Source: Candidatus Acetothermia bacterium | Lineage (GTDB): Bacteria > Bipolaricaulota > Bipolaricaulia > Bipolaricaulales > Bipolaricaulaceae | Length of the DNA stretch: 64,000 nt | NCBI GenBank assembly: GCA_003566155.1 | Contig: PXEP01000050.1 | Location: 1 to 64,000, forward strand | Reading direction: 5' to 3' | Shown: positions 1,722-40,168 of the stretch, piece after piece | How positions within the stretch are numbered: the stretch's first letter is position 1 | Layout of the letters: each line of letters starts with the position of its first letter | Notes under the pieces: generated by a model | Seen by the model: only the letters and a program-made list of their open reading frames with translations | What the model was told of the DNA's origin: nothing | Database searches by the model: none | Made by a program: the position numbers and the translations under genes

Positions 1722-3347
1722 GTGGTGCAGCGGCGGGTAGCACACAAGGACGGAGTCCTCCAGGTGTCGTTCGAATACGACCCCCGGTTGGTGGAGATGG
1801 TCAAGGGTGTTCCCGGGCGGAAGTGGCACCCGGAAGAGAAAATATGGACCGTACCAAGCACCCAGGTGGTGCAGCTTGTGGACCTCCTCTACCCCGCGGG
1901 TTTTTCGTTCGATGCGTCCACACTTGAGCTCTACGAGCAGAACAAGGGGGCTGCCTCCGATCACTACACTGTCTCCCGCCTAAACGCCGAGGCCCGCGCC
2001 GCGCTTAACCGAACCTTCCCCGCACCCGTATGGCTCGTGGGGGAGATCACCGGGTTCTCCAAGTCCTCCCACAAGCGCACCATCGACTTCCAACTGGTGG
2101 ACCGCGATGACGAGGGCAACACACTGGCTGAAGTCAACGCAGTTCTGTTCCAACGGCAAAGACAAGCAATCGAGGACAAACTCGCCCGCCAAGGCAGCCC
2201 GTTCCGCATGGAGGATGAGATAGCCGTTCGGGTTCAGGTGCAAGTGGACCTGCATCCGGAGTGGGGCGCTTACCGTGTGGTCATTCAAGACCTCGACGTG
2301 GAGTACACCCTGGGGGAGGCGGCTCGCCGTAGGGAAGAAATACTGAGAACCCTATCGGCGGAAGGTCTTCTGGAGAAAAACCGCAGGCTCCCGTTCCCCA
2401 TACTACCTCTGCACGTAGGCCTCATCACCAGCCCAGGCTCGGATGCGGAGCGCGACGTACTAAACACCTTGCAGGAATCGGGGTATGCGTTCCAGGTAAC
2501 CGTGTATCCCGCTCGTGTCCAGGGGAGGGAGACTGAACCTACTGTGCTGCGTGCTCTGTCTTGGTTCTCCGCCCGGAAGGAGCTGTTCGATGCCGTGCTG
2601 ATCTGCAGGGGGGGAGGCTCTCGCACCGACCTGGGATGGTTCGACTCACTGGCCTTGGGGCGGGAGGTGGCCTCGTTCCCATTGCCGGTGGTCGTGGGTA
2701 TCGGGCATGAAAACGACCGGTCGGTCTTGGATGAGGTGGGGTGGCGGGCCAAGACACCCACCGCAGCAGCCCAAGTACTGGTGGACCAGGTTGCTCATAC
2801 GCTGGAGAGGGCAGAAGCGGCCTGTAGACGAGCCCTCGAGTCCGCCCGGCATCGGGCGTCCGCCGAGCGTGAGCGCCTAGCGTCCGACGCACGGCGACTC
2901 TTGCAGTCCACCCGACAGACCTTGTCCCACGCCCACACAGAACTACGCCACTCACGCCATCGACTTCTCCGGGGGACCACAACCACCATCCGCACAGGCA
3001 GGCACGCCCTGTGGGCGCGCGCGGGCAGCCTCCCCCGCGCCGCTCACTACAGATTACAAACGGGACGGTCTTCTCTGGTCGAACTCAACCGACGGTTGCC
3101 CTTAGCCTCGGCCAACCTGATCGTGCGGGAACAAGAACGCGCCCACGCGCGTGCACGGCGCTTGGAATTGATACATCCTCGACGGGTGTTGGACCGTGGT
3201 TACGCGCTTCTGCGCTTGGACGACGGCAGAGTGATCACCGAACCCAAACATGCCCCGCCAGGCCGCCACGTTCACGCCGAGCTCCGCAAAGGTATCCTGA
3301 AGCTCCGCTCCGAGGGGGCCGGTGAGCACAGAGAGGGGGACACATGA
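1722..3347 (+). CDS. xseA: Exodeoxyribonuclease VII large subunit with N-terminal HARP-like extension
   Basis: XseA OB domain (YTVSRLNAEARAALNRTFPAPVWLVGEITGF) and catalytic region (RGGGSRTDLGWFDSLALGREVASFPLPVVVGIGHENDRSVLDEVG); followed by xseB. Confidence 0.95.
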   Translation: MVQRRVAHKDGVLQVSFEYDPRLVEMVKGVPGRKWHPEEKIWTVPSTQVVQLVDLLYPAGFSFDASTLELYEQNKGAASDHYTVSRLNAEARAALNRTFPAPVWLVGEITGFSKSSHKRTIDFQLVDRDDEGNTLAEVNAVLFQRQRQAIEDKLARQGSPFRMEDEIAVRVQVQVDLHPEWGAYRVVIQDLDVEYTLGEAARRREEILRTLSAEGLLEKNRRLPFPILPLHVGLITSPGSDAERDVLNTLQESGYAFQVTVYPARVQGRETEPTVLRALSWFSARKELFDAVLICRGGGSRTDLGWFDSLALGREVASFPLPVVVGIGHENDRSVLDEVGWRAKTPTAAAQVLVDQVAHTLERAEAACRRALESARHRASAERERLASDARRLLQSTRQTLSHAHTELRHSRHRLLRGTTTTIRTGRHALWARAGSLPRAAHYRLQTGRSSLVELNRRLPLASANLIVREQERAHARARRLELIHPRRVLDRGYALLRLDDGRVITEPKHAPPGRHVHAELRKGILKLRSEGAGEHREGDT

Positions 3348-6920: not shown

Positions 6921-8492
6921 ATGGGACGCCCAAGATCCTTCTCTCATCACCGGCCGTTGGGCCTGCTTGTGGTGGCAGGTGCGGCTGGCGCAGGCGTTCT
7001 CCTTCCGCTCATCTACTTGCTCCTGCGAGCAATGGAGGCTGAGTGGGGAGTAGTGCAGGAGCTCGTGTTCCGTCCCCGTAACCTGTACTTGCTGGGCAAC
7101 ACGTTGGGTCTTACAGCCGGAGTGCTGATCATGGACACGCTGATCGCTGTCCCCTTGGCCTGGCTACTCACCCGGACCGAGCTCGCCACCCGAAGGTGGT
7201 TGGTGTCCCTGGCCGTGCTGCCACTGGCCATCCCCGGCTATGTAATGGCTACCGCCCTCCTGGGGCTGGGGGGGGGCTACGGAGCCCTGGCCCGGCTGAC
7301 AGGGCTGAGCGTGCCGCGCCTCGGAGGATACTGGGGGGCACTACTGTGTATCTCGCTGTACACGTTTCCCTACGTGTTCATCAATGTACGGACTGCGCTG
7401 GCCGGATTGCCTCGGAACCTAGAGGAAGCCGCTCGCTCTCTGGGATACACGCCCCGCGCGTCCGCCCGGCGGGTGGTGCTGCCTCAACTCGTTCCCGCAC
7501 TGCTCTCCTCGTGGTTGGTGGTCGGGCTGTACACACTTGGCGATTTCGGCGCCGTCAGCCTGATGCGCTATGAATCCTTTAGCTACGCGATCTACCTGCA
7601 ATACGCGGGCGCGTTCGACCGCACCTACGCCGCGTGGCTGGCGCTGATGCTGCTGACCCTGGCGGGAGGCATCGTCTTCGTGCACAGCCGCCTGCAACGA
7701 GGGAAGAGCTACCACGCTGTAGGGAGCGCGACCCCGGGGGGCGCCTCTCCGGCGCCGTTGGGTCACTTGCGCTGGGCAGCGTATGCATACCTTCTAATCT
7801 TGTTCTTCCTGTCATTGGGCGTTCCGATAGGAACCCTGGGGTTCTGGCTGTTCCAACGCCCGTTGCTACCCGAGCTTTCCTCCCTGGCGAGCTCCGCGAT
7901 CGATACACTGTCCGTTGCGCTGCCTGCTGCCGCCTTGGCCGGCGTACTGGCAGCCGCGGTTTCGTACCTCTCTGTGAGGTGGCCGGGGAAGCTCACCCAA
8001 GCGCTGGCCGGAGCCCCTTATATCGGGTACGCCACCCCTCCACTTGCGTTCGGCCTGGCTTTGGTGTTCTTCGGTCTGCGCGGCGTTCCGTGGTTGTACC
8101 AAACGACAGCCCTTCTCTCTCTGGGACTAGCGCTGCATCTACTGGCGCTGGCCGTGGGGCCGGTACGTAGCACACTTCTGCAGACCCCTCCCCGGCTGGA
8201 GGAGGGAGCCCGCGCACTTGGTCGCAGTTGGCTGCGGGCGTTTCTGGAGGTCACAGGGCCACTCATGGGCCGAGGGGTGCTGGCAGGGACGGCGCTCGTA
8301 TGTATCGTGGCTATGAAGGAGCTTCCCATAACGATCTTGCTTGCGCCGCCGGGGTTTTCTACTCTGGCCACACAAGTATTCTCATATACCAGCGAAGCCC
8401 TGTTCGCTCAGGCTGCTCCCTATGCGTTGGCCATCGTGTTCCTTGCAGCACCCCTTGTCACCTACACGTTAGGAAGAGAGGTCAACGGATGA
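6921..8492 (+). CDS. Iron(III)-type ABC transporter permease
   Basis: Multi-TM duplicated permease with two EAA-type loops (EEAARSLGYTPRASARRVVLPQLVPAL; EEGARALGRSWLRAFLEVTGPLM). Confidence 0.92.
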   Translation: MGRPRSFSHHRPLGLLVVAGAAGAGVLLPLIYLLLRAMEAEWGVVQELVFRPRNLYLLGNTLGLTAGVLIMDTLIAVPLAWLLTRTELATRRWLVSLAVLPLAIPGYVMATALLGLGGGYGALARLTGLSVPRLGGYWGALLCISLYTFPYVFINVRTALAGLPRNLEEAARSLGYTPRASARRVVLPQLVPALLSSWLVVGLYTLGDFGAVSLMRYESFSYAIYLQYAGAFDRTYAAWLALMLLTLAGGIVFVHSRLQRGKSYHAVGSATPGGASPAPLGHLRWAAYAYLLILFFLSLGVPIGTLGFWLFQRPLLPELSSLASSAIDTLSVALPAAALAGVLAAAVSYLSVRWPGKLTQALAGAPYIGYATPPLAFGLALVFFGLRGVPWLYQTTALLSLGLALHLLALAVGPVRSTLLQTPPRLEEGARALGRSWLRAFLEVTGPLMGRGVLAGTALVCIVAMKELPITILLAPPGFSTLATQVFSYTSEALFAQAAPYALAIVFLAAPLVTYTLGREVNG

Positions 8493-9556
8493 ACTTGCTC
8501 GAGGTGCTCGGCCTACAACGCTCGTTCTCCGGAGGGATACGTGCGGTGGACGACGTGAGCTTCCATGTAGATCAAGGCGAATCCTTTGCTATCGTGGGCC
8601 CCTCTGGCTGCGGGAAGACGACCACCCTCCGCCTAATCGTCGGTTTCGATCTCCCCGACCGCGGTACGGTTCTGTTAAGAAAAAAGGATATCACCCGCAT
8701 TCCGCCGGAACGGCGAGGTATAGGATTTGTGTTCCAAGAGCACGCTCTGTTTCCCCACTTGTCCGTGCACGGAAACGTTGCGTTCGGCTTGCGTGGACTG
8801 CCCCGTAGCGTACGCCGGGAGCGAGCTTTGGAGTTGCTCCGCCTCGTAGGCCTGGGCGCAGAACGCGACCGCCAACCTCACCAGCTATCCGGTGGGCAGC
8901 AACAGCGCGTGGCATTGGCCCGTGCCCTAGCCCCTGGACCGCACATCGTGCTGTTGGACGAACCGTTTAACAGCCTGGACGCGGAACTGCGCGATGTGAC
9001 CAGACGAGACGTGTACACCCTGCTCCGACAGGCGCGAACGGCGTCCATTCTGGTAACACACGATCAACAAGAGGCGATGAGTTTCGCCGACCGTCTGGCG
9101 GTTATGCGGTCAGGGCACCTGGAACAGGTGGGAACGCCGAGCCAGGTATACCGCTATCCCCAGACGGTGTTCGTGGCCCGCTTCCTGGGCAACGCCAACG
9201 TGCTATCGGCCGTTGCACACGGGGCGGACGCCGCAACCCCAGTGGGCACAGTCCCCCTGACCGAGGAGCGACGGGGCCCTGTCATGATCGCGCTGCGCCC
9301 CGAGGCGTTGGCAGTCGTACCCAACGGGGAATGGAAGGTGGTCGCGTGCGAGTACAAAGGAGACCATTCCCTTCTGCGGATCGCGCACGAGCAGACAACT
9401 CTTCTCGCACGGAGCCCCGCGGAGTGTACTGTCTCCCCTGGACAAAGCGTGCACCCTACTGTCCTTGGTCAAGCCGTGCCCCTACAACAGGACACCGATG
9501 GAAACGGATCCCCTCAGCTCCAGTCAGGGCGGATCCCTGCCCGGCCGGATAGATAG
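8489..9556 (+). CDS. ABC transporter ATP-binding protein
   Basis: Walker A GPSGCGKTTTLR, signature LSGGQQQRVALARALAP, Walker B IVLLDEPF; ATGA overlap with permease. ORF-track start 8228 is too long. Confidence 0.95.
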   Translation: MNLLEVLGLQRSFSGGIRAVDDVSFHVDQGESFAIVGPSGCGKTTTLRLIVGFDLPDRGTVLLRKKDITRIPPERRGIGFVFQEHALFPHLSVHGNVAFGLRGLPRSVRRERALELLRLVGLGAERDRQPHQLSGGQQQRVALARALAPGPHIVLLDEPFNSLDAELRDVTRRDVYTLLRQARTASILVTHDQQEAMSFADRLAVMRSGHLEQVGTPSQVYRYPQTVFVARFLGNANVLSAVAHGADAATPVGTVPLTEERRGPVMIALRPEALAVVPNGEWKVVACEYKGDHSLLRIAHEQTTLLARSPAECTVSPGQSVHPTVLGQAVPLQQDTDGNGSPQLQSGRIPARPDR

Positions 9557-28484: not shown

Positions 28485-31178
28485 GTGAGCATCCGCAATC
28501 TGGACAGCATTTTCAAACCCAGCCGCGTTGCCGTGGTGGGGGCCAGCGACAACCCGGCAAGCGTCGGGCACACGGTGTTGAGAAACCTCGTCGGCTCAGG
28601 CTACTCGGGTGTGGTCTATCCGGTTAACCCAAAGAGGGAGTCCGTGCAGGGGATTCATGCCTACCCAGATGTGGCGAACCTTCCCCGGACCCCGGACCTG
28701 GCAATACTCTGCACCCCTGCCGACACGGTTCCAGGTTTGGTGAGGGAATGCGGGAACGCAGGGATACGCGGCGTCATCATCACTTCTGCAGGGTTCAAGG
28801 AGGCTGGTGAGGAAGGACGCGCGCTGGAGGACAAGGTAAAACAGGAGTCCTCCGCCTTCCCGGAGACCCGAATCATCGGCCCCAACTGCCTGGGCATCAT
28901 CGCCCCTTCCCTTAAGCTGAACGCAAGTTTTGCCGGAGCTATGCCCTCCACCGGCCACGTGGCGTTCATCTCTCAATCGGGAGCCCTCTGCACCTCTGTG
29001 CTTGACTGGGCCCTGGAGAGAAATATCGGGTTCTCGTACTTCGTTTCTATCGGAAATATGCTGGACGTCAATTTCGGAGACCTAATCGATTATTTCGGAG
29101 AGGACCCACACACCCAGTCCATCATCCTGTACACAGAGTCCATCACCGAACCCCGTGAGTTCATGTCAGCTGCAAGGGCGTTTTCCAAGGAGAAGCCTGT
29201 CGTCGCCTATAAATCAGGCCGGTTTGCCCAGTCGGCCCAGGCAGCTGCCTCCCATACTGGAGCACTGGCTGGCGAAGACGACGTTTACGACGCCGCCCTC
29301 CAACGAGCTGGGATCGTACGGGTAACCGAGATCGATGATGTGTTCGACTGTGCCGAACTTATCGCCCGGGCTCGCGCGCCTTGGGGCCCACGCCTGGCCA
29401 TCATCACCAATGCCGGCGGTCCGGGGGTCATGGCCACAGATGCCCTGCTCGCCCGCGACGGCAGCCTAGCAGAGTTGTCCAGCGAAACACTCGATCAGCT
29501 TAACTCAGCGCTCCCCGCTTTCTGGTCTCGGGGAAATCCGGTGGACGTGCTTGGGGATGCAGGGCCGGACCGATTCGTAGATGCCACGGAGTTGGCCCTG
29601 GCTGATGAGGGGGTGGACGCAGCCCTGGTAATCCTGACACCTCAGGCAATGACCGATCCCACAGCCACCGCGCGGGCCATGGGTGAGCTGGCCGAGCGCT
29701 CGCGTAAACCCCTTCTTGCAGCTTGGATGGGAGGGAACAGCGTGCGGGAAGGCCTCCACATCCTCACCGAGCACGGAATCCCTGCCTATACCACTCCCGA
29801 ACAAGCCGTGCGGGCGTTCATGTACCTGGTTCAATATGCGCGCAACCTGGAAGTTCTGTACGAAACACCCCGAGAGATACCCGTACGCCTGACTATGGAC
29901 AGGGAGAAGGCTCGGAGCACATTCGCCGAGCTTGTTACGGATGCAAGCTCGACGATGTCCGAGCAGGCATCCAAAGAACTGCTCGACGCCTACGGCATTC
30001 CTACCACCAAGGTACGCGAGACCCACAGCGAAGATGAAGCGATCGCTGCGGCCGAGGAGATCGGGTACCCAGTGGTCCTCAAAATCCTGTCCCCCCAGAT
30101 AACCCATAAGACAGATGTCGGCGGCGTGGTGCTCGACCTGCACAGTGCTGACGAAGTCCGCAACGCCTACCAAAGAATCGTAGAGGGAGCCAGACAGCAC
30201 GAGCCCGAGGCCGATATCCTGGGGGCGTCGGTCCAGCGTATGGTTGATGCCAAGGGCGGATTCGAGTTAATCCTCGGCGCCAAGCAAGATCCAGCCTTTG
30301 GAGCAGTGCTCATGGTGGGCACAGGGGGGATCGCCGCTGAGGTGTTCCGGGATAGAGCACTGGGGCTACCTCCGCTCAACGAGCGACTGGCTCGCAGGCT
30401 GGTAGAAGCTTTGCGCGCCTGGCCCTTGCTTGGAGGATACCGCGGCCGCCCGAAAGTGAACATGGACAAACTGCTCGAGGTGTTGATGCGGTTTTCTTAC
30501 CTGGTCGCAGAGCATCCGGAGGTAACCGAGCTGGATATAAATCCGTTGTTGGTAACGCCACAGGAGGCGGTGGCTCTGGATGCTCGGGTGGTTGTGAACA
30601 GTGAGAAGCTTGCCAAGCAAGAGAAACCCTACGCGCATTTGGCTATCCGCCCTTATCCGGGAGAGTACATAAGAGAAGCCACTACAACTGAGGGAGTGCC
30701 GGTCACGCTTCGGCCGATCCGTCCAGAGGACGAACCTTTGTGGCACGAGATGTTGCGGATCTCCTCACGCGAGTCGATCCGGTTTCGCTTTCAGTACATC
30801 TTCAAGGAGAGCACCCACGAGATGGCTACCCGATACTGCTTCATCGACTACGACAGGGAAATGGCAATCGTCGCCGAGCTTGAGGAAGCCGGCGAGCGGA
30901 AGATCGCCGGCGTAGGCAGGCTGGTCGCCGGTCCAGATCCACGGACCGCGGAGTACGCTGTGTTCGTAGCAGATCCCTGGCAGGGGCAAGGGCTGGGAAA
31001 CCTCCTTACGGAATACTGCCTGGAGATAGCCGCCACACGGAAGGTGTCGAGAGTAACTGCGGAGACAACACCGGACAACCGGCGCATGCTGGCCATTTTC
31101 GAGTCGCAGGGCTTTCGCTTGGAACACCACGCACAAGAAGGAATCGTGCTGGCGCACAGAGAACTGGCGGGCACCTAG
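28485..31178 (+). CDS. Pat-like NDP-forming acyl-CoA synthetase/ATP-grasp/GNAT fusion with intact His motif
   Basis: CoA-binding domain, ASHTGALAGEDDVYDAALQRAG phospho-His motif, ATP-grasp VVLKILSPQITHKTDVGGV, C-terminal GNAT DPWQGQGLGNLL; GTG start with AAGGAGG. Confidence 0.92.
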   Translation: MSIRNLDSIFKPSRVAVVGASDNPASVGHTVLRNLVGSGYSGVVYPVNPKRESVQGIHAYPDVANLPRTPDLAILCTPADTVPGLVRECGNAGIRGVIITSAGFKEAGEEGRALEDKVKQESSAFPETRIIGPNCLGIIAPSLKLNASFAGAMPSTGHVAFISQSGALCTSVLDWALERNIGFSYFVSIGNMLDVNFGDLIDYFGEDPHTQSIILYTESITEPREFMSAARAFSKEKPVVAYKSGRFAQSAQAAASHTGALAGEDDVYDAALQRAGIVRVTEIDDVFDCAELIARARAPWGPRLAIITNAGGPGVMATDALLARDGSLAELSSETLDQLNSALPAFWSRGNPVDVLGDAGPDRFVDATELALADEGVDAALVILTPQAMTDPTATARAMGELAERSRKPLLAAWMGGNSVREGLHILTEHGIPAYTTPEQAVRAFMYLVQYARNLEVLYETPREIPVRLTMDREKARSTFAELVTDASSTMSEQASKELLDAYGIPTTKVRETHSEDEAIAAAEEIGYPVVLKILSPQITHKTDVGGVVLDLHSADEVRNAYQRIVEGARQHEPEADILGASVQRMVDAKGGFELILGAKQDPAFGAVLMVGTGGIAAEVFRDRALGLPPLNERLARRLVEALRAWPLLGGYRGRPKVNMDKLLEVLMRFSYLVAEHPEVTELDINPLLVTPQEAVALDARVVVNSEKLAKQEKPYAHLAIRPYPGEYIREATTTEGVPVTLRPIRPEDEPLWHEMLRISSRESIRFRFQYIFKESTHEMATRYCFIDYDREMAIVAELEEAGERKIAGVGRLVAGPDPRTAEYAVFVADPWQGQGLGNLLTEYCLEIAATRKVSRVTAETTPDNRRMLAIFESQGFRLEHHAQEGIVLAHRELAGT

Positions 31179-31184
31179 GTAACA

Positions 31185-33470
31185 ATGGGCACGGTTAACC
31201 TCGAGCGTGCGCTGCGCCCTACAGGGGTAGCTGTCATCTCAGTCGGTCGTGGCCGATGTGCCCGGCAGGCGTTGGACAATCTGGTTGCTCACGAGTTCAC
31301 GGGGCAGGTCTACTGTGTCGGGATCGCCCCCCCCGCACCGTCTGTCCAGACAGCGCACAAGGTAGAGAACCTACCGCCCGAGGGCACATTGCTCATACTG
31401 GACGCTCCTTCTGAACAGATTCCTCACTTGGTTCAACAAGCCGGGGAGCTGGGCTTCCCGGGGGTGTTGATCATGTCACGCGAGGCGCCCATGGGCGTAC
31501 TGCGTGCCTTCTGCCAAGAGCATCCGCAAACCAGGGTCATCGGTCCTGGCTCCAGAGGGTTGATCATTCCTGCACTCGGCCTCAACGCCAGCTTGCATCG
31601 GGGACTCCCTGGGCACGGCGGCTTGGCCATGATCAGTTCCTCCCCCTTGCTGTGGGACCAGCTCCTATACAACGCGCAGCGCAAACGCCTTGGCCTGAGC
31701 CACCTCGTCTCACTGGGGGAGCAGGTAGACGTTGACGCAGCCGACGTCACAGACTATTTGCACAGGCGAGGGCGTGTACGGTGTCTGGTGTTGGACTCAA
31801 GCTCCGTACCGAAGCCGGACAAATTGCTTCCCGCCGTATGGTCATTCGCCAGGGACAGACCGCTGATCGCGCACAGCTCTCAGTCCCCATGGGATTGGCA
31901 GGTGTTCTCTTGCGCTCTTGAGCGCGCCGGGGCCATCCCGCTTGAGGACAAACAGGAGCTGTTATCCCTATTGGAGATCACCTGCAGACTCGACCATCCT
32001 CCCCCGGGGCCCCAAGTGGTCCTGCTTAGCTCCACAGGGGAAGAAGCGTTGCCGGAGGGTCATTCCCGCCGAGTGCTGCACCTGTCCCCACACACCCGCC
32101 ATGCTCTAGGCGACTTAGGTTGTTCGGTAAGCCGAACCCATGTTTCCCTGCCCAGCGGCGCAGGCGAACAGGACTGGTTGCACACCGTCCACCTGTTGCT
32201 CGACGACGCCCGTGTCCACATGCTCCTTTCCCATAGTCCTCCTCCGCTGTCCCCAGCTGCCGCCGCCCAGGCCGCCGCAGCCGCAGAGAAGGCGTGCAAG
32301 CCGTTGGCCATTGCTGCTACCGACGCACAGACTGTACAGGTGCTGTCTCAGGCAGGCATAGCAACTTACGCAAGCATCTCTGAGCCGCTCCGTCTGCTTG
32401 ACAGACTGGCACGGCATGCGCACAACCTTAGGAAGCTCCACCGCTGGTGGGGCAACCTGCCCGCAGGCCCTCGGCCTCAGCAACGTCCTAAGCTCCCCCC
32501 GGGGCAGACACCCCAGGACTTGCTGATTGACACTCTGGCCCGTTGGGGCATCAAGGCGAAGTCGACAACGCAGCCTGCGCAGCAACGCAGCTACTCGGTT
32601 GGACTGCGCCGACACCCCCTGTTCGGCACGGTGGTCACTTGCAGCACCGATATTCCCGACAGCTTCTTGCCCGCTGTTGGCATGCCCCCGCTCACCAGGC
32701 CTCTGGCCCGCTCAATGGTGGCCGCACTGTCCCGTCCGCTTCCCGCCGCAGAGGAACGGGCACTGACGGAACTCCTGATTCGGACTTCCCAGCTTGCCGG
32801 TGACCTACCCCAGCTGGTGGAACTGGAGCTATCTCCGGTCGTGATCATCGACCGAGAGCCTATTGCTCTAGACGCCCGGGCCCGGTTCGAAGCCGATTGC
32901 CCCGAGCCCCATGTGTGCTTGTGCCCCTACCCCCTGGAGCGCACATGCACAGTGAAGCTCAAGGACGGCACCGCGCTCTCTTTGCGTCCCATCCGCCCCG
33001 ACGACGCACCCCGTTGGCGCAGGATGCTCACAACTTCCTCTTCGGAGTCCCTCCGGCTTAGGTATCACTCAGTGCATCACGCTCCTTCCCGGAGGATGGC
33101 ACGCCGCCATTGCTGCATCGATTACCACAGGGAATTCGTCATCGTGGCCGAAGCAAGGACAGAAAATCGAGCTGTATTGGCCGGAGAGGGCGAACTGTTC
33201 CTCGATTCGGATTGCGATCTCTCTGAGTTCGCCGTGTTCGTGGCCGATCCCTGGCAGGGGAAAGGTTTGGGCAGCATCCTCACCGACTACATGGTGGAAC
33301 TGGCCCGGCAGCTGGGCGCGTGCCGTGTGACCTGTGAGTTGACCCCGGACAATGTGCGCATGATCAACCTCCTCCAGCGCCGCGGGTTCGCCGTGCGCAT
33401 CGAAATGGAGGACAGGGTAGTGTTCGCCGAGAAGGAACTGTCCCAGCCTCCCCCTCCCGCTGGCGCATGA
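31185..33470 (+). CDS. Degenerate paralogue of the upstream Pat-like protein; GNAT domain retained
   Basis: Collinear with the 28485 protein; no SHTGALAG motif and most of ATP-grasp missing; GNAT motif DPWQGKGLGSILTDY present. Confidence 0.88.
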   Translation: MGTVNLERALRPTGVAVISVGRGRCARQALDNLVAHEFTGQVYCVGIAPPAPSVQTAHKVENLPPEGTLLILDAPSEQIPHLVQQAGELGFPGVLIMSREAPMGVLRAFCQEHPQTRVIGPGSRGLIIPALGLNASLHRGLPGHGGLAMISSSPLLWDQLLYNAQRKRLGLSHLVSLGEQVDVDAADVTDYLHRRGRVRCLVLDSSSVPKPDKLLPAVWSFARDRPLIAHSSQSPWDWQVFSCALERAGAIPLEDKQELLSLLEITCRLDHPPPGPQVVLLSSTGEEALPEGHSRRVLHLSPHTRHALGDLGCSVSRTHVSLPSGAGEQDWLHTVHLLLDDARVHMLLSHSPPPLSPAAAAQAAAAAEKACKPLAIAATDAQTVQVLSQAGIATYASISEPLRLLDRLARHAHNLRKLHRWWGNLPAGPRPQQRPKLPPGQTPQDLLIDTLARWGIKAKSTTQPAQQRSYSVGLRRHPLFGTVVTCSTDIPDSFLPAVGMPPLTRPLARSMVAALSRPLPAAEERALTELLIRTSQLAGDLPQLVELELSPVVIIDREPIALDARARFEADCPEPHVCLCPYPLERTCTVKLKDGTALSLRPIRPDDAPRWRRMLTTSSSESLRLRYHSVHHAPSRRMARRHCCIDYHREFVIVAEARTENRAVLAGEGELFLDSDCDLSEFAVFVADPWQGKGLGSILTDYMVELARQLGACRVTCELTPDNVRMINLLQRRGFAVRIEMEDRVVFAEKELSQPPPPAGA

Positions 33471-33497: not shown

Positions 33498-34784
33498 TCA
33501 CCGCGGGCGGGAGCGGCGAGCTGCCCTTCGCTTGGGAACCACTGCGGCCTGGGGTCCTTCGTGGACCGGATTGAGTAGGAGAATAGAGAGAAGAAGCCCC
33601 ACCAGGGCAAGCCCGATTACTGGAGGGAACACCAACACGTAACTACCGGTGATGTCACGCAGCAACCCCGATAGCACCATCCCCAGGATCGCTCCCAGTC
33701 CATATCCGGTATACACCCATCCGTAGTTGCTGCCGTAGTGCTTGGTCCCAAACAGCGTCGCCGTAGCCGTAGGTGCGATGGCCAGCCACCCGCCCAGGTT
33801 GAGCCACAGAATGGAGAAGCCAACAAAGTAAACTGGTGCATTTCCTTCTCCCCACAGCGCCAGTAACGTCGAACCAACGATAATTGCACCAAACGACATC
33901 ACAGCAGCCCGCTTGGGCGACAGCAAATCCGTCAGCCAACCAAATAGGGGACGGCCAGCAGCGTTGAACAACGCGAACATTGAGACGAAAACGGCCGCCG
34001 GCCCCGGATCCAGGCGCGCCACCTCTTGCCCATACGGAGAAGCGATGCCGATGGCCATCAGCCCCGCCAGACAGCCAACGGTGAACGAACCCCACAGACC
34101 ATAGAAAGCACTCGTGCGCAGCATGGCCGCGGAGTCTAGCTCCGCACGCGCCGAGTCTTCCTCGGAGTGCTTGGCAGCACCTCGCAGCTTCCAGCCCGCC
34201 GGGGGCACCCGCAATGGAACGGAAAGGAGCAACAACAGCAGCATCAATACGCCGCCAAACACAGAAAACGTAGGCAAGGGACCCAACCAACGTATGGTCA
34301 TCTCCAACAACGGGGCCATCACCAATGCTGACAAGCCAAAGCCCATCACCGTAAGGCCTACCGCCAAGCCTTTCTTGTCCGGGAACCACTTTGCGGACAC
34401 CGCGATAGGGCAGCCGTACAGCACCCCCACGCCGGCACCACCCAACACGCCATACAGCACGGTGAGAACAACGATGTTCGGAGACAATCCAGCCAGAAGC
34501 CAGCCCGCGCCCACCAATACTCCTCCCACCAGCCCGGTCCTCTTGGGGCCCCAGCGGTCAATCCCCCGACCGGCGACCACCATCCCCACGCTGAACACGC
34601 CGAGGAACACCATGAAAGGAAGGCCGCTATGGGTGGCGCCGATGTCCCACAGCTCCTCCAGAGGTCTCCGGAACACGCTGAAGGCGTACACGGCCCCCAG
34701 GCACATGTTGATCAACACCCCGAGCGCCACGTAAAGCCAACGCCCCTTCTCCGCTGGAAGACCAAACACCGCCAGTTCCTTCAT
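33498..34784 (-). CDS. MFS transporter, OFA (oxalate/formate antiporter)-like
   Basis: LGVLINMCLGAVYAFSVFRRPLEELW; GAGVGVLYGCPIAVSAKWFPDKKGLAVGLTVMGFG; 12 TM. Confidence 0.88.
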   Translation of the reverse strand: MKELAVFGLPAEKGRWLYVALGVLINMCLGAVYAFSVFRRPLEELWDIGATHSGLPFMVFLGVFSVGMVVAGRGIDRWGPKRTGLVGGVLVGAGWLLAGLSPNIVVLTVLYGVLGGAGVGVLYGCPIAVSAKWFPDKKGLAVGLTVMGFGLSALVMAPLLEMTIRWLGPLPTFSVFGGVLMLLLLLLSVPLRVPPAGWKLRGAAKHSEEDSARAELDSAAMLRTSAFYGLWGSFTVGCLAGLMAIGIASPYGQEVARLDPGPAAVFVSMFALFNAAGRPLFGWLTDLLSPKRAAVMSFGAIIVGSTLLALWGEGNAPVYFVGFSILWLNLGGWLAIAPTATATLFGTKHYGSNYGWVYTGYGLGAILGMVLSGLLRDITGSYVLVFPPVIGLALVGLLLSILLLNPVHEGPQAAVVPKRRAARRSRPR

Positions 34785-34868: not shown

Positions 34869-36827
34869 TCAGCCGGTATAACCAACTGCCCGCTTTAGAT
34901 CCTCAACCGAGTCGGGGTTACGCAAAGTAGCCACATCTCCGAGCGGCTCCCCGCGGACAAGCGACTTCAGCACACGTCGCATGATCTTCCCCGAGCGTGT
35001 CTTGGGTACGTCCTCCACAAAGTAGATCTCCGCCGGACGGGCCGTGGGCCCGATGTGAGCATCCACAGTCTTTATTAGCTCCCTCTTTAGGTCATCCGAG
35101 GGCTGGGCCCCCTTCTTCAGAAGCAAGAACGCGATGGGGACCTCGCCCTTCACCTCATCCGGCTTGGACACAACGGCCACCTCACTGACCAGGGCGTGTT
35201 GGGTCAGTGCGTCCTCCACCTCCGCGGTGGCCAGGCGGTGTCCAGCAACGTTCATCACGTCGTCCACGCGCCCGGTGATCCGCACGTTGCCCAACTCGTC
35301 GATGCGCGCTCCGTCACGGGTGAAGTAGAAGCCGGGGCCGTACTCCGAGAAGTAAGTGCCTTTGTACTTCTCCGGATCACCATATAGTCCCCGGAGGAGT
35401 GCCGGCGGGAAGGGAGGCTTCAACACCAGGTATCCACCCTCACCGCGTGGTAGCTCTTGGCCTCCCGCATCCAGAATGGCTACCCGAACGCCGGGGAACG
35501 GCCTGCCCGCAACGGTGGGCACAAACGGACCGATGCCGGGCAACGATTGCACACACGTGGCTCCGGTCTCCGTCTGCCACCAGGTATCCACAATCGGACA
35601 ACGTTCGCCCCCGATGTTTTTGAAGTACCACAGCCACGCCTCTTCGTTGATCGGCTCCCCGACAGTTCCCAGAACACGCAGGGTGGATAGGTCGTACTTC
35701 GCGGGCCACTCCTCTCCCCACTTGACGTGCATACGGATCGCGGTGGGAGCCGTGTAGAAGACAGTGACTTTGTGCTTCTCCACAACCTGCCACATACGAC
35801 CATAGTCCGGATGATCCGGCGTTCCCTCGTACACCACTGTGGCAACACCGTTCAGCAACGGCCCGTAGTTAATGTACGTGTGCCCCGTGATCCAACCCAC
35901 ATCGGCCGTGCACCAGTGGACATCGTCCTCGTGGAGGTTGAAATCCCACTTACACGTAGTGTGCGCCTGCACGGCGTACCCACCCGTGGTATGCATCACA
36001 CCTTTGGGTTTCCCGGTCGTTCCGGATGTGTAGAGGATGAACGCCAAGTCCTCGGAATCCATCTCCTCGGCCGGACACTCGGTCGGCTGATCCTTAACCA
36101 GATCGTGATACCAAACATCCCGGCCCATGGACATAGGGACCTCGCTACCGGAACGCTGAACCACGATCACTTTCTCCACCTGTGTCCCACTCAGGGCCTT
36201 GTCCGCGTTGGGTTTCAACGCGATCGGTTTTCCCCGGCGATAATAACCGTCAGCGGTGATCAACACCTTAGCCCCACAGTCCAACATTCTGTCCCGTAGC
36301 GCTTCTGCTGAGAAGGCAGAAAACACAACCGAATGCACGGCGCCAATGCGCACGACCGCCTGCATGGCGATCACCGCCTCGGGGATCATCGGGAGGTAAA
36401 TACCCACCCGGTCGCCCTTACCCACTCCCATCTCCTTGAGGGCATTGGCCAAGCGGGATACCTCTTCCAGTAGTTCGCTGTAGGTCAACACGCGTCCGGG
36501 CTGATCGGTGGGCTCAGGCTCCCAAATCAAAGCCACCCGGTCACCGTTTCCGGCCTCTATGTGCCGATCCAGCGAGTTGTAGGACAAATTTGTCTTACCA
36601 CCAACGAACCACTTGAACTCGTACGGGGCCTCTTCATAGACCTTGTCCCATTTCTTGAACCAGTGAAGCTCTTGCGCTCGCTCCTCCCAGAAACCCTCTG
36701 GATCGGCCTCCGCCTTTTCGTAGACCTCCGGATCGGAGATCCACGCTCGCTCCTTGGCCTCTTGTGTAGGCCAATACCAGTTCTTGCGCTTTGGATCAGG
36801 CTGAACCCACTTCACACCCTTGGCCAC
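34869..36827 (-). CDS. acs: Acetyl-CoA synthetase
   Basis: FILYTSGTTGKPKGVMHTTGGY; DTWWQTETGA; C-terminal PKTRSGKIMRR; GTG start with AAGGAGGAG; ORF-track start 37070 is too long. Confidence 0.97.
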   Translation of the reverse strand: MAKGVKWVQPDPKRKNWYWPTQEAKERAWISDPEVYEKAEADPEGFWEERAQELHWFKKWDKVYEEAPYEFKWFVGGKTNLSYNSLDRHIEAGNGDRVALIWEPEPTDQPGRVLTYSELLEEVSRLANALKEMGVGKGDRVGIYLPMIPEAVIAMQAVVRIGAVHSVVFSAFSAEALRDRMLDCGAKVLITADGYYRRGKPIALKPNADKALSGTQVEKVIVVQRSGSEVPMSMGRDVWYHDLVKDQPTECPAEEMDSEDLAFILYTSGTTGKPKGVMHTTGGYAVQAHTTCKWDFNLHEDDVHWCTADVGWITGHTYINYGPLLNGVATVVYEGTPDHPDYGRMWQVVEKHKVTVFYTAPTAIRMHVKWGEEWPAKYDLSTLRVLGTVGEPINEEAWLWYFKNIGGERCPIVDTWWQTETGATCVQSLPGIGPFVPTVAGRPFPGVRVAILDAGGQELPRGEGGYLVLKPPFPPALLRGLYGDPEKYKGTYFSEYGPGFYFTRDGARIDELGNVRITGRVDDVMNVAGHRLATAEVEDALTQHALVSEVAVVSKPDEVKGEVPIAFLLLKKGAQPSDDLKRELIKTVDAHIGPTARPAEIYFVEDVPKTRSGKIMRRVLKSLVRGEPLGDVATLRNPDSVEDLKRAVGYTG

Positions 36828-36991
36828 TTCTAGGTCTCCTCCTTTCTCAGCTGAACGCCGCTGAACGCAACTCAGCCCCGGAATCATATCCAATACGCGT
36901 CGGCGCACCAGGCCGCGCCGAGGGACACCTCTTTGCGCAGTTCGTCGGTTTGGCGTACAAGGGGACGGAGAACATTTGTGCTGGGGGCGAC

Positions 36992-37669
36992 ATGAAACGC
37001 CTGATCCGACTTTTGCGCGACACATTCGTATCGGGCCTGCTGGTTCTTCTGCCCGCAGGGCTGACGGCATATGTCTTGTGGCTCATCTTCCGACTGATAG
37101 CAGGGTGGGTCGGTCCGCAGACTGCCCTTTCCCAACTGCTCACCAGGGCATTCGGACGCTATATCCCAGGTACGGAGATTCTGGTCACCCTTTCCATTGT
37201 CCTCGTTGTGGGGGCCGTAGCGCGCTATTGGTTGGGGAAGCGCTTGGTCAACACTGTGGAGCAAGGCTTGCTCTCTCTGCCGGTATTGCGCAAGCTCTAC
37301 TGGACGACCAGACAACTATCGTACGCTCTGCTCAAACGGGAGGTGGTGCAGGAGGGCAAGGTCAAGCGGCTGGTTCTTGTGGAGTTTCCCGTCGAGGGCT
37401 CCTACGCCATGGGCTTCCTGACAAGTTATGATCTTTCGTACCTAGACCAGCTGCTCGAGGCGTCGATTGTATCCATCTATGTACCAACGGCGCCTAACCC
37501 TACCTCCGGTTATGTGGTGTTCGTATCGAGGGACAAGGTGATCCCGTTGGATCTGACTATGGACGAGGGCTTCAGTATGGTGCTCTCCGGTGGTATGGTG
37601 GTTCCCGATAGGATGAGAGTGGAACGCCCTCCAGATAAGGAGGTACCCGATGCCGATCAGGCGGGATGA
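36992..37669 (+). CDS. DUF502 family membrane protein
   Basis: LRDTFVSGLLVLLPAGLTAYVLWLIF; IPGTEILVTLSIVLVVG; KLYWTTRQLSYALL. Confidence 0.9.
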   Translation: MKRLIRLLRDTFVSGLLVLLPAGLTAYVLWLIFRLIAGWVGPQTALSQLLTRAFGRYIPGTEILVTLSIVLVVGAVARYWLGKRLVNTVEQGLLSLPVLRKLYWTTRQLSYALLKREVVQEGKVKRLVLVEFPVEGSYAMGFLTSYDLSYLDQLLEASIVSIYVPTAPNPTSGYVVFVSRDKVIPLDLTMDEGFSMVLSGGMVVPDRMRVERPPDKEVPDADQAG

Positions 37670-38501
37670 CCGAGGTAGATATGTGGAGGTGGAACCTCGC
37701 CGTACCGAAGAAACGGCGTGGCTGCGATGCCGAGAGTGCGGGGAGCTGGTCTTTCGCCGCAAGCTAAAGGAGTCCAACCACATCTGCCAACGTTGTGGCG
37801 CGTACTTCTTCCTCACCGCCCACGAGCGCGTGACTTCATTGGTCGATGAGGATTCGTTTGAGCCTTTGGGCTTGGGGGCCACCTCGCTTGATCCGCTCGA
37901 GTTTGTCGATAGGCGACCCTACCAAGAGCGCCTGGAGGAGGCACAGGCTATTACTGGTTTGAACGATGCGATCCTCGTAGGGCGCGGGACACTAGACGGC
38001 TGCCCTTTGGTTCTGGCTGTGATGGACTTCCGCTTCATCGGAGGCAGTATGGGGCAAGTCGTGGGCGACGAGATTGCCGCAGCTCTGGAGCGCTGTGCTC
38101 AAGAGGAAGTACCATTCGTGCTTGTTGTAGCCTCAGGCGGAGCGCGGGTGCAAGAAGGCATGGTCTCCCTCCTACAAATGGCCAAGACAGTGGCCGCGCG
38201 GAACGTGCTCGCCGAAGCGGCCGTTCCCTTCATCGCCGTGCTCACCTACCCATCAAGCGGTGGAATGCTGGCCTCGGTAGGCAGCCTGGCCGACATCACC
38301 ATCGCCGAGCAAGGAGCGATGATCGGTTTCGCTGGGCCGCGCGTTATCGAGCAGACCACGGGAGAACGGCTCCCGGCCGGTTTCCAGACCGCCAGCTTTG
38401 CCCTTGAGCATGGCATGGTGGATCAGGTGGTCACCAGAGAATCACTGCGAGCTGAACTGACCCGGGCGTTGTCTGTACTCCAAGGAGGTTCTCATGGCTG
38501 A
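37650..38501 (+). CDS. accD: Acetyl-CoA carboxylase carboxyltransferase subunit beta
   Basis: Cys4 zinc ribbon CRECGE..CQRCGAYF; MVSLLQMAKTVAA; VGSLADITIAEQGAMIGFAGPRVIEQTTGE. Confidence 0.97.
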   Translation: MPIRRDDRGRYVEVEPRRTEETAWLRCRECGELVFRRKLKESNHICQRCGAYFFLTAHERVTSLVDEDSFEPLGLGATSLDPLEFVDRRPYQERLEEAQAITGLNDAILVGRGTLDGCPLVLAVMDFRFIGGSMGQVVGDEIAAALERCAQEEVPFVLVVASGGARVQEGMVSLLQMAKTVAARNVLAEAAVPFIAVLTYPSSGGMLASVGSLADITIAEQGAMIGFAGPRVIEQTTGERLPAGFQTASFALEHGMVDQVVTRESLRAELTRALSVLQGGSHG

Positions 38502-39453
38502 CGACACCTCCATCCGTGCCTTGGAGGAGAAGGTCGCCGAGCTACGTACGATGATGGAGAGCGGCGGCGTCGACCTAAGCGAGGAGATCACACTCCTGGA
38601 GAAGAAACTGTTCGCCCTAAGACGAGAACAATACGCGCGGATGTCTGATTGGGACAGAGTCAAGCTTGCTCGCCATCCAGAGCGTCCCCGCGGGTCTCCG
38701 TTGGTGGAAGCCGTTGCAGAAAACTTCTACGAATTGCGCGGCGACCGGATGGGCGGAGATGATCCAGCTCTCCGAGGGGGCCCGGCCCTTCTGGACGGCA
38801 GGAGGATCATGATCCTGTTCCACCACAGAGGGAGCACACGTGAACAGCAACATGCCTGTCGATTCGGGATGGCCACGCCGCAGGGTTACCGCAAGGCGAT
38901 CCGCCTGATGAACATCGCCGAGAGGCTTCGCCTGCCGCTTCTGTCGCTCGTGGACACACCAGGCGCCTACCCCGGCGTGCAGTCAGAAGAGCAGAACATA
39001 GCAGGGGCTATAGCGGAAAGCATTTCACGAACGCTTGCTTTGGACGTGCCCACCTTGACGGTCATCCTTGGCGAAGGTGGATCCGGGGGAGCGATTGCGA
39101 TAGCCGCTACCGACCGGGTCCTGATGATGGAGAATGCAACGTACTCGGTGATCTCCCCCGAAGGGGCAGCAGCTATCCTGTGGAAGGACCCCCAGGCCAC
39201 TCCCCAAGCCGCCCAGGCGCTGCGCCTGACCGCCCCTCCCCTTATGGAACTGGGGCTCATAGACCAGATCATCGCCGAACCTGTCGGAGGGGCACATACT
39301 GACCCGAAGTCGACCGCCGATGAACTACGGACTGCCGTAAGCAATCATCTGCATGAATTGTCATCGATCCCGCTGGACGAGCTGAGAGCTTTGCGGTACA
39401 AACGGTATCGAAATGCGGGAAGCGTCCGTGCGGCGGCCGATCAAAGGGGTTGA
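38494..39453 (+). CDS. accA: Acetyl-CoA carboxylase carboxyltransferase subunit alpha
   Basis: RPRGSPLVEAVAENFYELRGDRMGGDDPALRGG; VDTPGAYPGVQSEEQNIAGAIAE; ILGEGGSGGAIAI. Confidence 0.97.
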   Translation: MADDTSIRALEEKVAELRTMMESGGVDLSEEITLLEKKLFALRREQYARMSDWDRVKLARHPERPRGSPLVEAVAENFYELRGDRMGGDDPALRGGPALLDGRRIMILFHHRGSTREQQHACRFGMATPQGYRKAIRLMNIAERLRLPLLSLVDTPGAYPGVQSEEQNIAGAIAESISRTLALDVPTLTVILGEGGSGGAIAIAATDRVLMMENATYSVISPEGAAAILWKDPQATPQAAQALRLTAPPLMELGLIDQIIAEPVGGAHTDPKSTADELRTAVSNHLHELSSIPLDELRALRYKRYRNAGSVRAAADQRG

Positions 39454-40168
39454 CGCCTGCGAGGGATGCGAGGCCGGCTGCACCTATGTGTTTCGTGGAC
39501 TCCCAGCCGAAGCTTGGAGAGAACTGCGGCCAGCCATGCGGACCATGGACCTTGCAGCCGGAGAGACGGTGTTTCACGAAGGCATGCCCGCCTTTGGTTT
39601 GTACATCGTCTGTGAGGGCAAAGTGAAAGTAGCTAAGCACACCCGCGCTACGCACTCGCAGATCCTCAAACTGCTGGGCCCCGGGGAGATTCTGGGCGAG
39701 AAGACCTTGTTCGATCGAGAGACCTACACCTGTTATGCGAAGACCCTCGAACCATCGCGTCTTGTGTTCATTCCCAAAGAAGATTTCCTGGCCCTCGTGC
39801 GCAAGTACCCGGACGTAGCCTTGCGGTTGGTGGAGAAGCTTTCCCGCGAGGGGAAAGTGTTCGGCGAGAAGCTAGTCGAGATCACCTCACGCTCGGCAAA
39901 GGAGCGCGTCGCCCGTGTGTTGGTCGAGCTCTATCACGCGTTCGGCAGCGAGACAAGGAGGGGGTTGGACATCGGGGTAGAGCTGCCCCGTGCCGAACTG
40001 GCGGAGATGGCAGGACTAACCACCGAAACCGCTATCCGAGTCCTCTCGGATCTCAAGGACCGCGAGATCATCGCCCTGGATGGCCCCCGGATCCTTATCT
40101 TGAAGATGGATAACATGAAGCATCTGGCTCACCCGTTCCGCACCTTCCTTCGGGAAAACCTGGCCTAG
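39413..40168 (+). CDS. Crp/Fnr family regulator with N-terminal CxxCxxxC
   Basis: DACEGCEAGC, cNMP-binding fold, C-terminal HTH RAELAEMAGLTTETAIRVLSDLKDREII. Confidence 0.92.
   Translation: MREASVRRPIKGVDACEGCEAGCTYVFRGLPAEAWRELRPAMRTMDLAAGETVFHEGMPAFGLYIVCEGKVKVAKHTRATHSQILKLLGPGEILGEKTLFDRETYTCYAKTLEPSRLVFIPKEDFLALVRKYPDVALRLVEKLSREGKVFGEKLVEITSRSAKERVARVLVELYHAFGSETRRGLDIGVELPRAELAEMAGLTTETAIRVLSDLKDREIIALDGPRILILKMDNMKHLAHPFRTFLRENLA

Follow-up and report, generated by a model that had tools for sequence, protein, structure and literature searches.

A tandem pair of acyl-CoA ligase-GNAT fusion genes, one with a degenerate ligase domain, beside an acetyl-CoA synthetase gene in Candidatus Acetothermia

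Introduction

The Pat proteins of E. coli and Salmonella are type I GNATs. Their N-terminal domain, resembling ADP-forming acyl-CoA ligases (ACD), is inactive; it binds acetyl-CoA, and the proteins depend on it for activity, and these enteric enzymes normally lack the ligase His (PMC8556138). Both the origin and the use of this dead ligase domain are debated. In B. subtilis, AcuA acetylates the catalytic Lys of AcsA, inactivating the enzyme (PMC11910552). In B. subtilis AcuA-AcsA and for the Pats of M. tuberculosis and S. lividans, a GNAT is encoded or acts beside acetyl-CoA synthetase (Acs), on its catalytic Lys, with no regulatory part in AcuA, a cAMP domain in MtPat and a C-terminal ACD-like domain in SlPat. 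Among ACDs, Ca. Korarchaeum ACD1 and the N. maritimus 4-hydroxybutyrate-CoA ligase are the nearest described relatives of the locus reported here, and intact ACD-GNAT fusions exist elsewhere, e.g. in Cupriavidus respiraculi.

The window (the whole stretch of DNA analysed, 64,000 nucleotides) comes from a Candidatus Acetothermia draft genome (1.93 Mb, 236 contigs, 83% complete), and holds two consecutive ACD-GNAT genes, for proteins P1 and P2, likewise beside Acs, with a regulatory part in P2 that differs from those of AcuA, MtPat and SlPat. Neither P1 nor P2 is a new kind of protein, and no new system is described; the unusual feature is that an intact and a dead-ligase copy stand in a conserved tandem, with constraint mostly on the GNAT.

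Results

Layout of the gene pair and class of P1

P1 is a complete ACD-GNAT fusion of 897 aa (28485..31178, +), with a GTG start and AAGGAGG upstream, and P2 is its ligase-dead paralogue of 761 aa (31185..33470, +), read from the ATG at 31185 to a stop ending at 33470, and identified by its ORF, Pfam domains, orthologues in two other genomes (G001 and G007) and an AlphaFold2 model. The P1 stop and the P2 start are 6 nt apart on the same strand. BLASTP aligned the C-terminal parts at 38% over 299 aa (E 2e-58) and the N-terminal parts at 28% over 462 aa (E 2e-38), and by these alignments the two proteins are homologous over nearly their whole length, far above chance.

CoA_binding_2, Succ_CoA_lig, Ligase_CoA_2, ATP-grasp_5 and Acetyltransf_1 were all found over the Pfam cut-off in P1. 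The phospho-His, His257 in ASHTG (29253..29255, +), is shared by all P1 homologues that align at this column, and the ATP-grasp motif HKTDVGG, residues 541–547 (30105..30125, +), is conserved in P1 homologues and deleted in 3/3 P2. The GNAT domain, residues 736–895, with E823 and QGQGLG (30690..31169, +; Pfam and alignment), is still constrained in P2-bearing genomes.

By sequence, P1 thus has the phospho-His loop and the complete ATP-grasp of an ACD; against the curated models TIGR02717 and NF045493 it scored 547.8 and 562 bits, under the respective cut-offs of 567.15 and 1300. Type I Pats have an inactive ligase with the catalytic His absent, and since P1 retains both His257 in ASHTG and HKTDVGG, it was not filed as a classical Pat. 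It looks better described as a bifunctional ACD-GNAT, combining a ligase and an acetyltransferase. Compared with Ca. Korarchaeum ACD1 and the N. maritimus ligase, P1 likewise carries the ligase motifs and differs by its added GNAT and its scores under the curated cut-offs, whereas P2 has the same fold with the catalytic parts missing. A conventional ACD gene without a GNAT, with SHTG and HKSDVGG present, lies elsewhere in the same genome (L002:1488-3566, G000:C78).

Losses in the ligase half of P2

The CoA-binding, Succ_CoA_lig and Ligase_CoA regions persist in P2 as a remnant over approximately residues 1–419 (31185..32441, +; Pfam and alignment), with Succ_CoA_lig weakened (E 7.5e-16) and CoA_binding_2 under the Pfam cut-off (E 0.053). 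The phospho-His loop, the Rossmann GAS and most of the ATP-grasp N-half, including HKTDVGG, are missing in all three P2 sequences. Deletion of the 15-residue phospho-His loop left a junction at about residues 232–237, SQSPWD (31878..31895, +), which is alike in 3/3 P2 orthologues, and alignment of the three placed the junction of the ATP-grasp N-half deletion at about residues 455–472 (32547..32600, +). The C-half of ATP-grasp_5 was retained, residues 466–566 (32580..32882, +), matching Pfam profile positions 108–219 of 221 (E 4.1e-11).

Residues invariant in P1 were kept by all three P2 at 12/42, 18/61, 12/52, 2/31 and 13/34 positions in the five ACD regions, the lowest count being that of the ATP-grasp N-half, where 23 of the 31 fall in gaps in all three. 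In the CoA-binding region, from which GAS is missing, P2 has 17–18 of the 42 P1-invariant residues, against 24 in PatZ.

Lacking the phospho-His loop and a complete ATP-grasp in 3/3 orthologues, P2 is not an ACD by sequence, and the deletion of the His loop (3/3) gives it, likewise by sequence, the presumably inactive ligase without catalytic His of a type I Pat. E. coli PatZ has Leu at the ligase His position in the alignment. Because the ligase His is lost in enteric Pats, it is P2, not P1, that resembles the textbook Pat in that respect.

GNAT half and predicted structure of P2

The GNAT domain of P2, residues 598–753 (32976..33443, +), was found over cut-off by both Pfam Acetyltransf_1 and Acetyltransf_3, and is the slowest-evolving part of the protein. 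It carries the R/Q-x-x-G-x-G/A motif of type I Pat GNATs as the acetyl-CoA P-loop QGKGLG, residues 691–696 (33255..33272, +), and E681 (33225..33227, +) aligns with the postulated catalytic Glu of PatZ, E809, although its presence proves little, because that Glu is not strictly needed in PatZ or SePat (PMC8556138). All three P2 keep 38 of the 52 P1-invariant residues of the GNAT region, which also contains 25 fixed P2-specific residues, including a charge change from GVGRL to GEGEL, residues 667–671 (33183..33197, +), fixed in the three P2. V810 and R812 of P1, within GVGRL, are near-invariant among P1.

AlphaFold2 folded P1 (pLDDT 86.0, pTM 0.86) and P2 (pLDDT 86.4, pTM 0.87) whole, each as a single chain; P1 sequences dominate the 39-sequence alignment used for P2, so that the P1 fold may have influenced the ACD part of its model. 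The best PDB match of P2 by Foldseek was liganded E. coli PatZ (9it0, TM 0.83, E 3.2e-52), and its GNAT also matched 4nxy, 4u5y (the S. lividans Pat GNAT-Acs complex) and 4avb. P2 thus has the type I Pat architecture, N-terminal ACD-like and then C-terminal GNAT, by Pfam and by a whole-chain match to the PatZ fold. It shares with E. coli PatZ and S. enterica Pat this domain order, the absent ligase His and the E809 equivalent. It is more eroded than they are, having lost the ATP-grasp N-half and GAS, whereas PatZ keeps GAS and HKSEVQG; it is about 125 residues shorter and, unlike these Pats, stands in tandem with an intact-ligase paralogue.

The original prediction, of two collinear fusion proteins 6 nt apart with a Pat/PatZ-like architecture, was borne out by both ORFs, the Pfam order and the PatZ fold match. 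Its account of the motifs also held, with the phospho-His and ATP-grasp motifs kept in the first protein, the His site of the second changed and its ATP-grasp core mostly gone (the 15-residue deletion and the N-half loss), and the second GNAT intact, with E681 and QGKGLG present. Its statement that the second protein "kept only the GNAT" was too strong, as P2 retains about 570 ACD-derived residues, which AlphaFold2 folds confidently.

Selection on P2

Intact P2 orthologues were found directly after P1 in G001, of the same genus (51% identity), and in G007, of another genus (47%), both Candidatus Acetothermia (Bipolaricaulota) draft genomes (records PWTL01000071.1 and PWTC01000018.1). The isolate tag CSSed11 may denote soda-lake sediment. 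The conserved tandem pair that a homologue search was to look for is therefore present in two relatives.

Over the same three genomes, the ratio of P2 to P1 tree length was 5.2, 8.1, 6.5 and 6.0 for the ACD parts and 1.9 for the GNAT. Nei-Gojobori dN/dS, which is rough because dS was saturated (1.2–2.9), was approximately 0.10–0.11 for the P2 GNAT, 0.28–0.40 for the P2 ACD parts and 0.05–0.14 for P1. Purifying selection in P2 is concentrated on the GNAT. The proposed comparison of the two halves thus separated two selective regimes (about 0.10 vs about 0.3), and the relaxation across the whole protein, GNAT included, that would have spoken against the prediction was not seen (1.9-fold vs 5.2- to 8.1-fold); nor did the orthologues in G001 and G007 contain the stops of a decaying pseudogene.

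The faster evolution and internal deletions of the ACD part are what would be expected if P2 were a decaying pseudogene or an in-frame relic, but in three genomes whose synonymous sites are saturated the gene stays open for more than 750 codons, a rough neutral simulation gave about 7 stops at 20% substitution, the deletions are shared by all three P2, and the GNAT has a dN/dS of about 0.1. A pseudogene is therefore very improbable, and was rejected given intact orthologues, no stops and GNAT constraint. That the locus is an assembly or binning artefact of a draft genome, as the fragmented state of all three P2-bearing MAGs might suggest, is more improbable still: the gene order recurs in three separate assemblies, which come from two genera and have diverged in sequence and two of which are public records (those of G001 and G007), and this explanation was likewise rejected.

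Distribution and origin of P2

P2 was present in 3 of 100 genomes of the phylum, for which a phylum-wide search added no genomes to the class set of 100, and was never seen without P1. P1 is widespread in the family, and most family genomes have no P2. A scan of named genomes with the single P2 query gave no match, and with the P2 alignment the only close matches were the two orthologues.

Whether the tree was built on the C-terminal, the GNAT or the N-terminal part, the three P2 formed one clade on a long stem with support 100. The C-terminal and GNAT trees placed this clade among or beside the P1 sequences of the family; its position there differs between domain trees, with a long branch, and the degenerate N-terminal part fixes no position. 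A block of P1, transporter and Acs without P2 was found in genera g3, g5, g9 and g12, in most with accD-accA and a Crp-like gene. A decayed P2 was sought between P1 and the transporter/Acs genes in P2-less genomes and none was found; the space is occupied there by a SatP-like gene, by folD and formate-THF-ligase-like genes, or by unassigned ORFs of spacer size. The P1 that clusters most closely with the g1 copies is that of genome G004, and because the sequence after it is unrelated and the genome 58% complete, loss of P2 there is indistinguishable from rearrangement. P2 was added in one lineage to an existing P1 acetate locus, the simplest reading being that P1 was duplicated at or before the g1/g7 split.

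Where P2 is present, the P1 GNAT still has its invariant residues and is thus constrained, so that P2 has not simply replaced it; supersession of the P1 GNAT by P2 was considered and left no sign.

A rival reading makes P2 chiefly a regulatory pseudo-subunit, which would assemble with P1 through the ACD fold and tune the P1 ligase or GNAT, with a P2 GNAT that may act only in the complex. The 6-nt tandem spacing in G000 (the window's genome) and G001, the constant company of P1, the predicted folding of the ACD remnant and the tetramers and octamers of PatZ and tetramers of SePat (PMC8556138) are consistent with such a role. It is nevertheless unlikely, given that the remnant evolves 5–8 times faster than its counterpart in P1, whereas a strict interface should hold the rate down, that conservation in P2 lies mostly in the GNAT, and that P1 manages without P2 in most family genomes.

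An apparently independent parallel was observed in f5, another family of the class. A second ACD-GNAT paralogue there (L138:1825-4443, −; L141:268-2886, +), identical in both MAGs aligned, is missing the INPL motif as well as the ATP-grasp HKTDVGG segment, its His loop reads SSHIG, and its GNAT looks intact. The ancestor-like bifunctional protein, the dead-ligase copy beside it and the half-decayed f5 copy form a natural series that runs from a working enzyme to a regulatory scaffold, and with it one can test in which role, enzyme, sensor or scaffold, the ligase domain is required. The f2/f3 families encode a fusion of a Pat-like GNAT with an acetyl-CoA hydrolase/CoA-transferase (L144:4244-6145, −), and the gene directly downstream of it is an ACD without a GNAT.

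Gene neighbourhood and proposed function

In all three loci, P2 lies between P1 and the transporter-Acs genes. Convergent with P2 in the window is an MFS monocarboxylate transporter gene (33498..34784, −; NCBIfam NF049980 SfMCT, 365.6 bits, cut-off 320), followed by the gene for AMP-forming Acs (34869..37070, −; TIGR02188, 889.5 bits, cut-off 725), the presumed GNAT substrate, in which the motif PKTRSGK contains Lys695 (34986..34988, −), a putative Pat/AcuA-type modification site. P1 is linked to Acs and to an acetate- or lactate-type (monocarboxylate or SatP-like) transporter in several genera. A class-wide search found Acs in nearly all genomes, so that its co-occurrence with P2 is uninformative. 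Genes for a SIR2 deacylase occur in the window's genome and across the family (36 of 40 genomes).

P2 probably originated as a tandem duplicate of P1, within a locus for acetate uptake and activation, and is probably a lysine acyltransferase of the Pat type (type I GNAT) with a dead ligase, acting on Acs, which we infer as its substrate from the neighbourhood alone. P2 would take acetyl- or another acyl-CoA, with a substrate preference possibly altered by the change from GVGRL to GEGEL, and acylate Lys695 of the adjacent Acs or a related CoA ligase, switching it off as feedback control, and the sirtuin encoded elsewhere in the genome would reverse the acylation. As in PatZ, the ACD remnant may provide a scaffold for oligomerisation or regulation, and because its Rossmann motif is damaged it has perhaps stopped sensing acyl-CoA. 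P1 would keep both activities, interconverting acyl-CoA with acid and ATP and acting as a GNAT, and the two proteins together would separate the making and use of acyl-CoA via ACD from the control of Acs. P1, widespread without P2, has a GNAT and the Acs linkage, and control of Acs therefore does not require P2.

The P2 GNAT might instead act on P1 itself, another CoA ligase, the acetyl-CoA carboxylase encoded by the adjoining accDA, or a small molecule. This is possible but doubtful: the fixed P2-specific residues of the GNAT region, GEGEL among them, and the linkage of accD-accA in the same block point that way, but at each of the three P2 loci the transporter gene has Acs as its neighbour, Pat-type enzymes have Acs as their textbook target, and the accDA linkage occurs without P2 too. 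More speculative, and rather improbable, is a pseudoenzyme-regulated acetate switch, in which P1 and P2 would form one mixed complex, with acyl-CoA made or bound by P1 passed to or read by the P2 GNAT, setting Acs activity. Acylation of Acs by P2 is the preferred reading, and the P1-P2 locus yields a specific hypothesis of how acetate might be controlled in Candidatus Acetothermia (Bipolaricaulota).

In the f5 family, the ACD-GNAT gene, Acs and a SatP-like gene are consecutive on one strand, with the ACD-GNAT gene directly upstream of Acs. The transporter beside Acs alternates between MFS monocarboxylate and SatP-like types, the latter assigned by sequence appearance, in otherwise similar loci (window 33498-34784; L040 ~2643-3215; L046 ~8356-8928; L134 ~7285-7854). 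Genes for AccD, AccA and a Crp/FNR-like regulator (window 37650-40168) lie beside Acs in many family genomes, and the accDA-Acs linkage suggests an acetate-to-malonyl-CoA neighbourhood.
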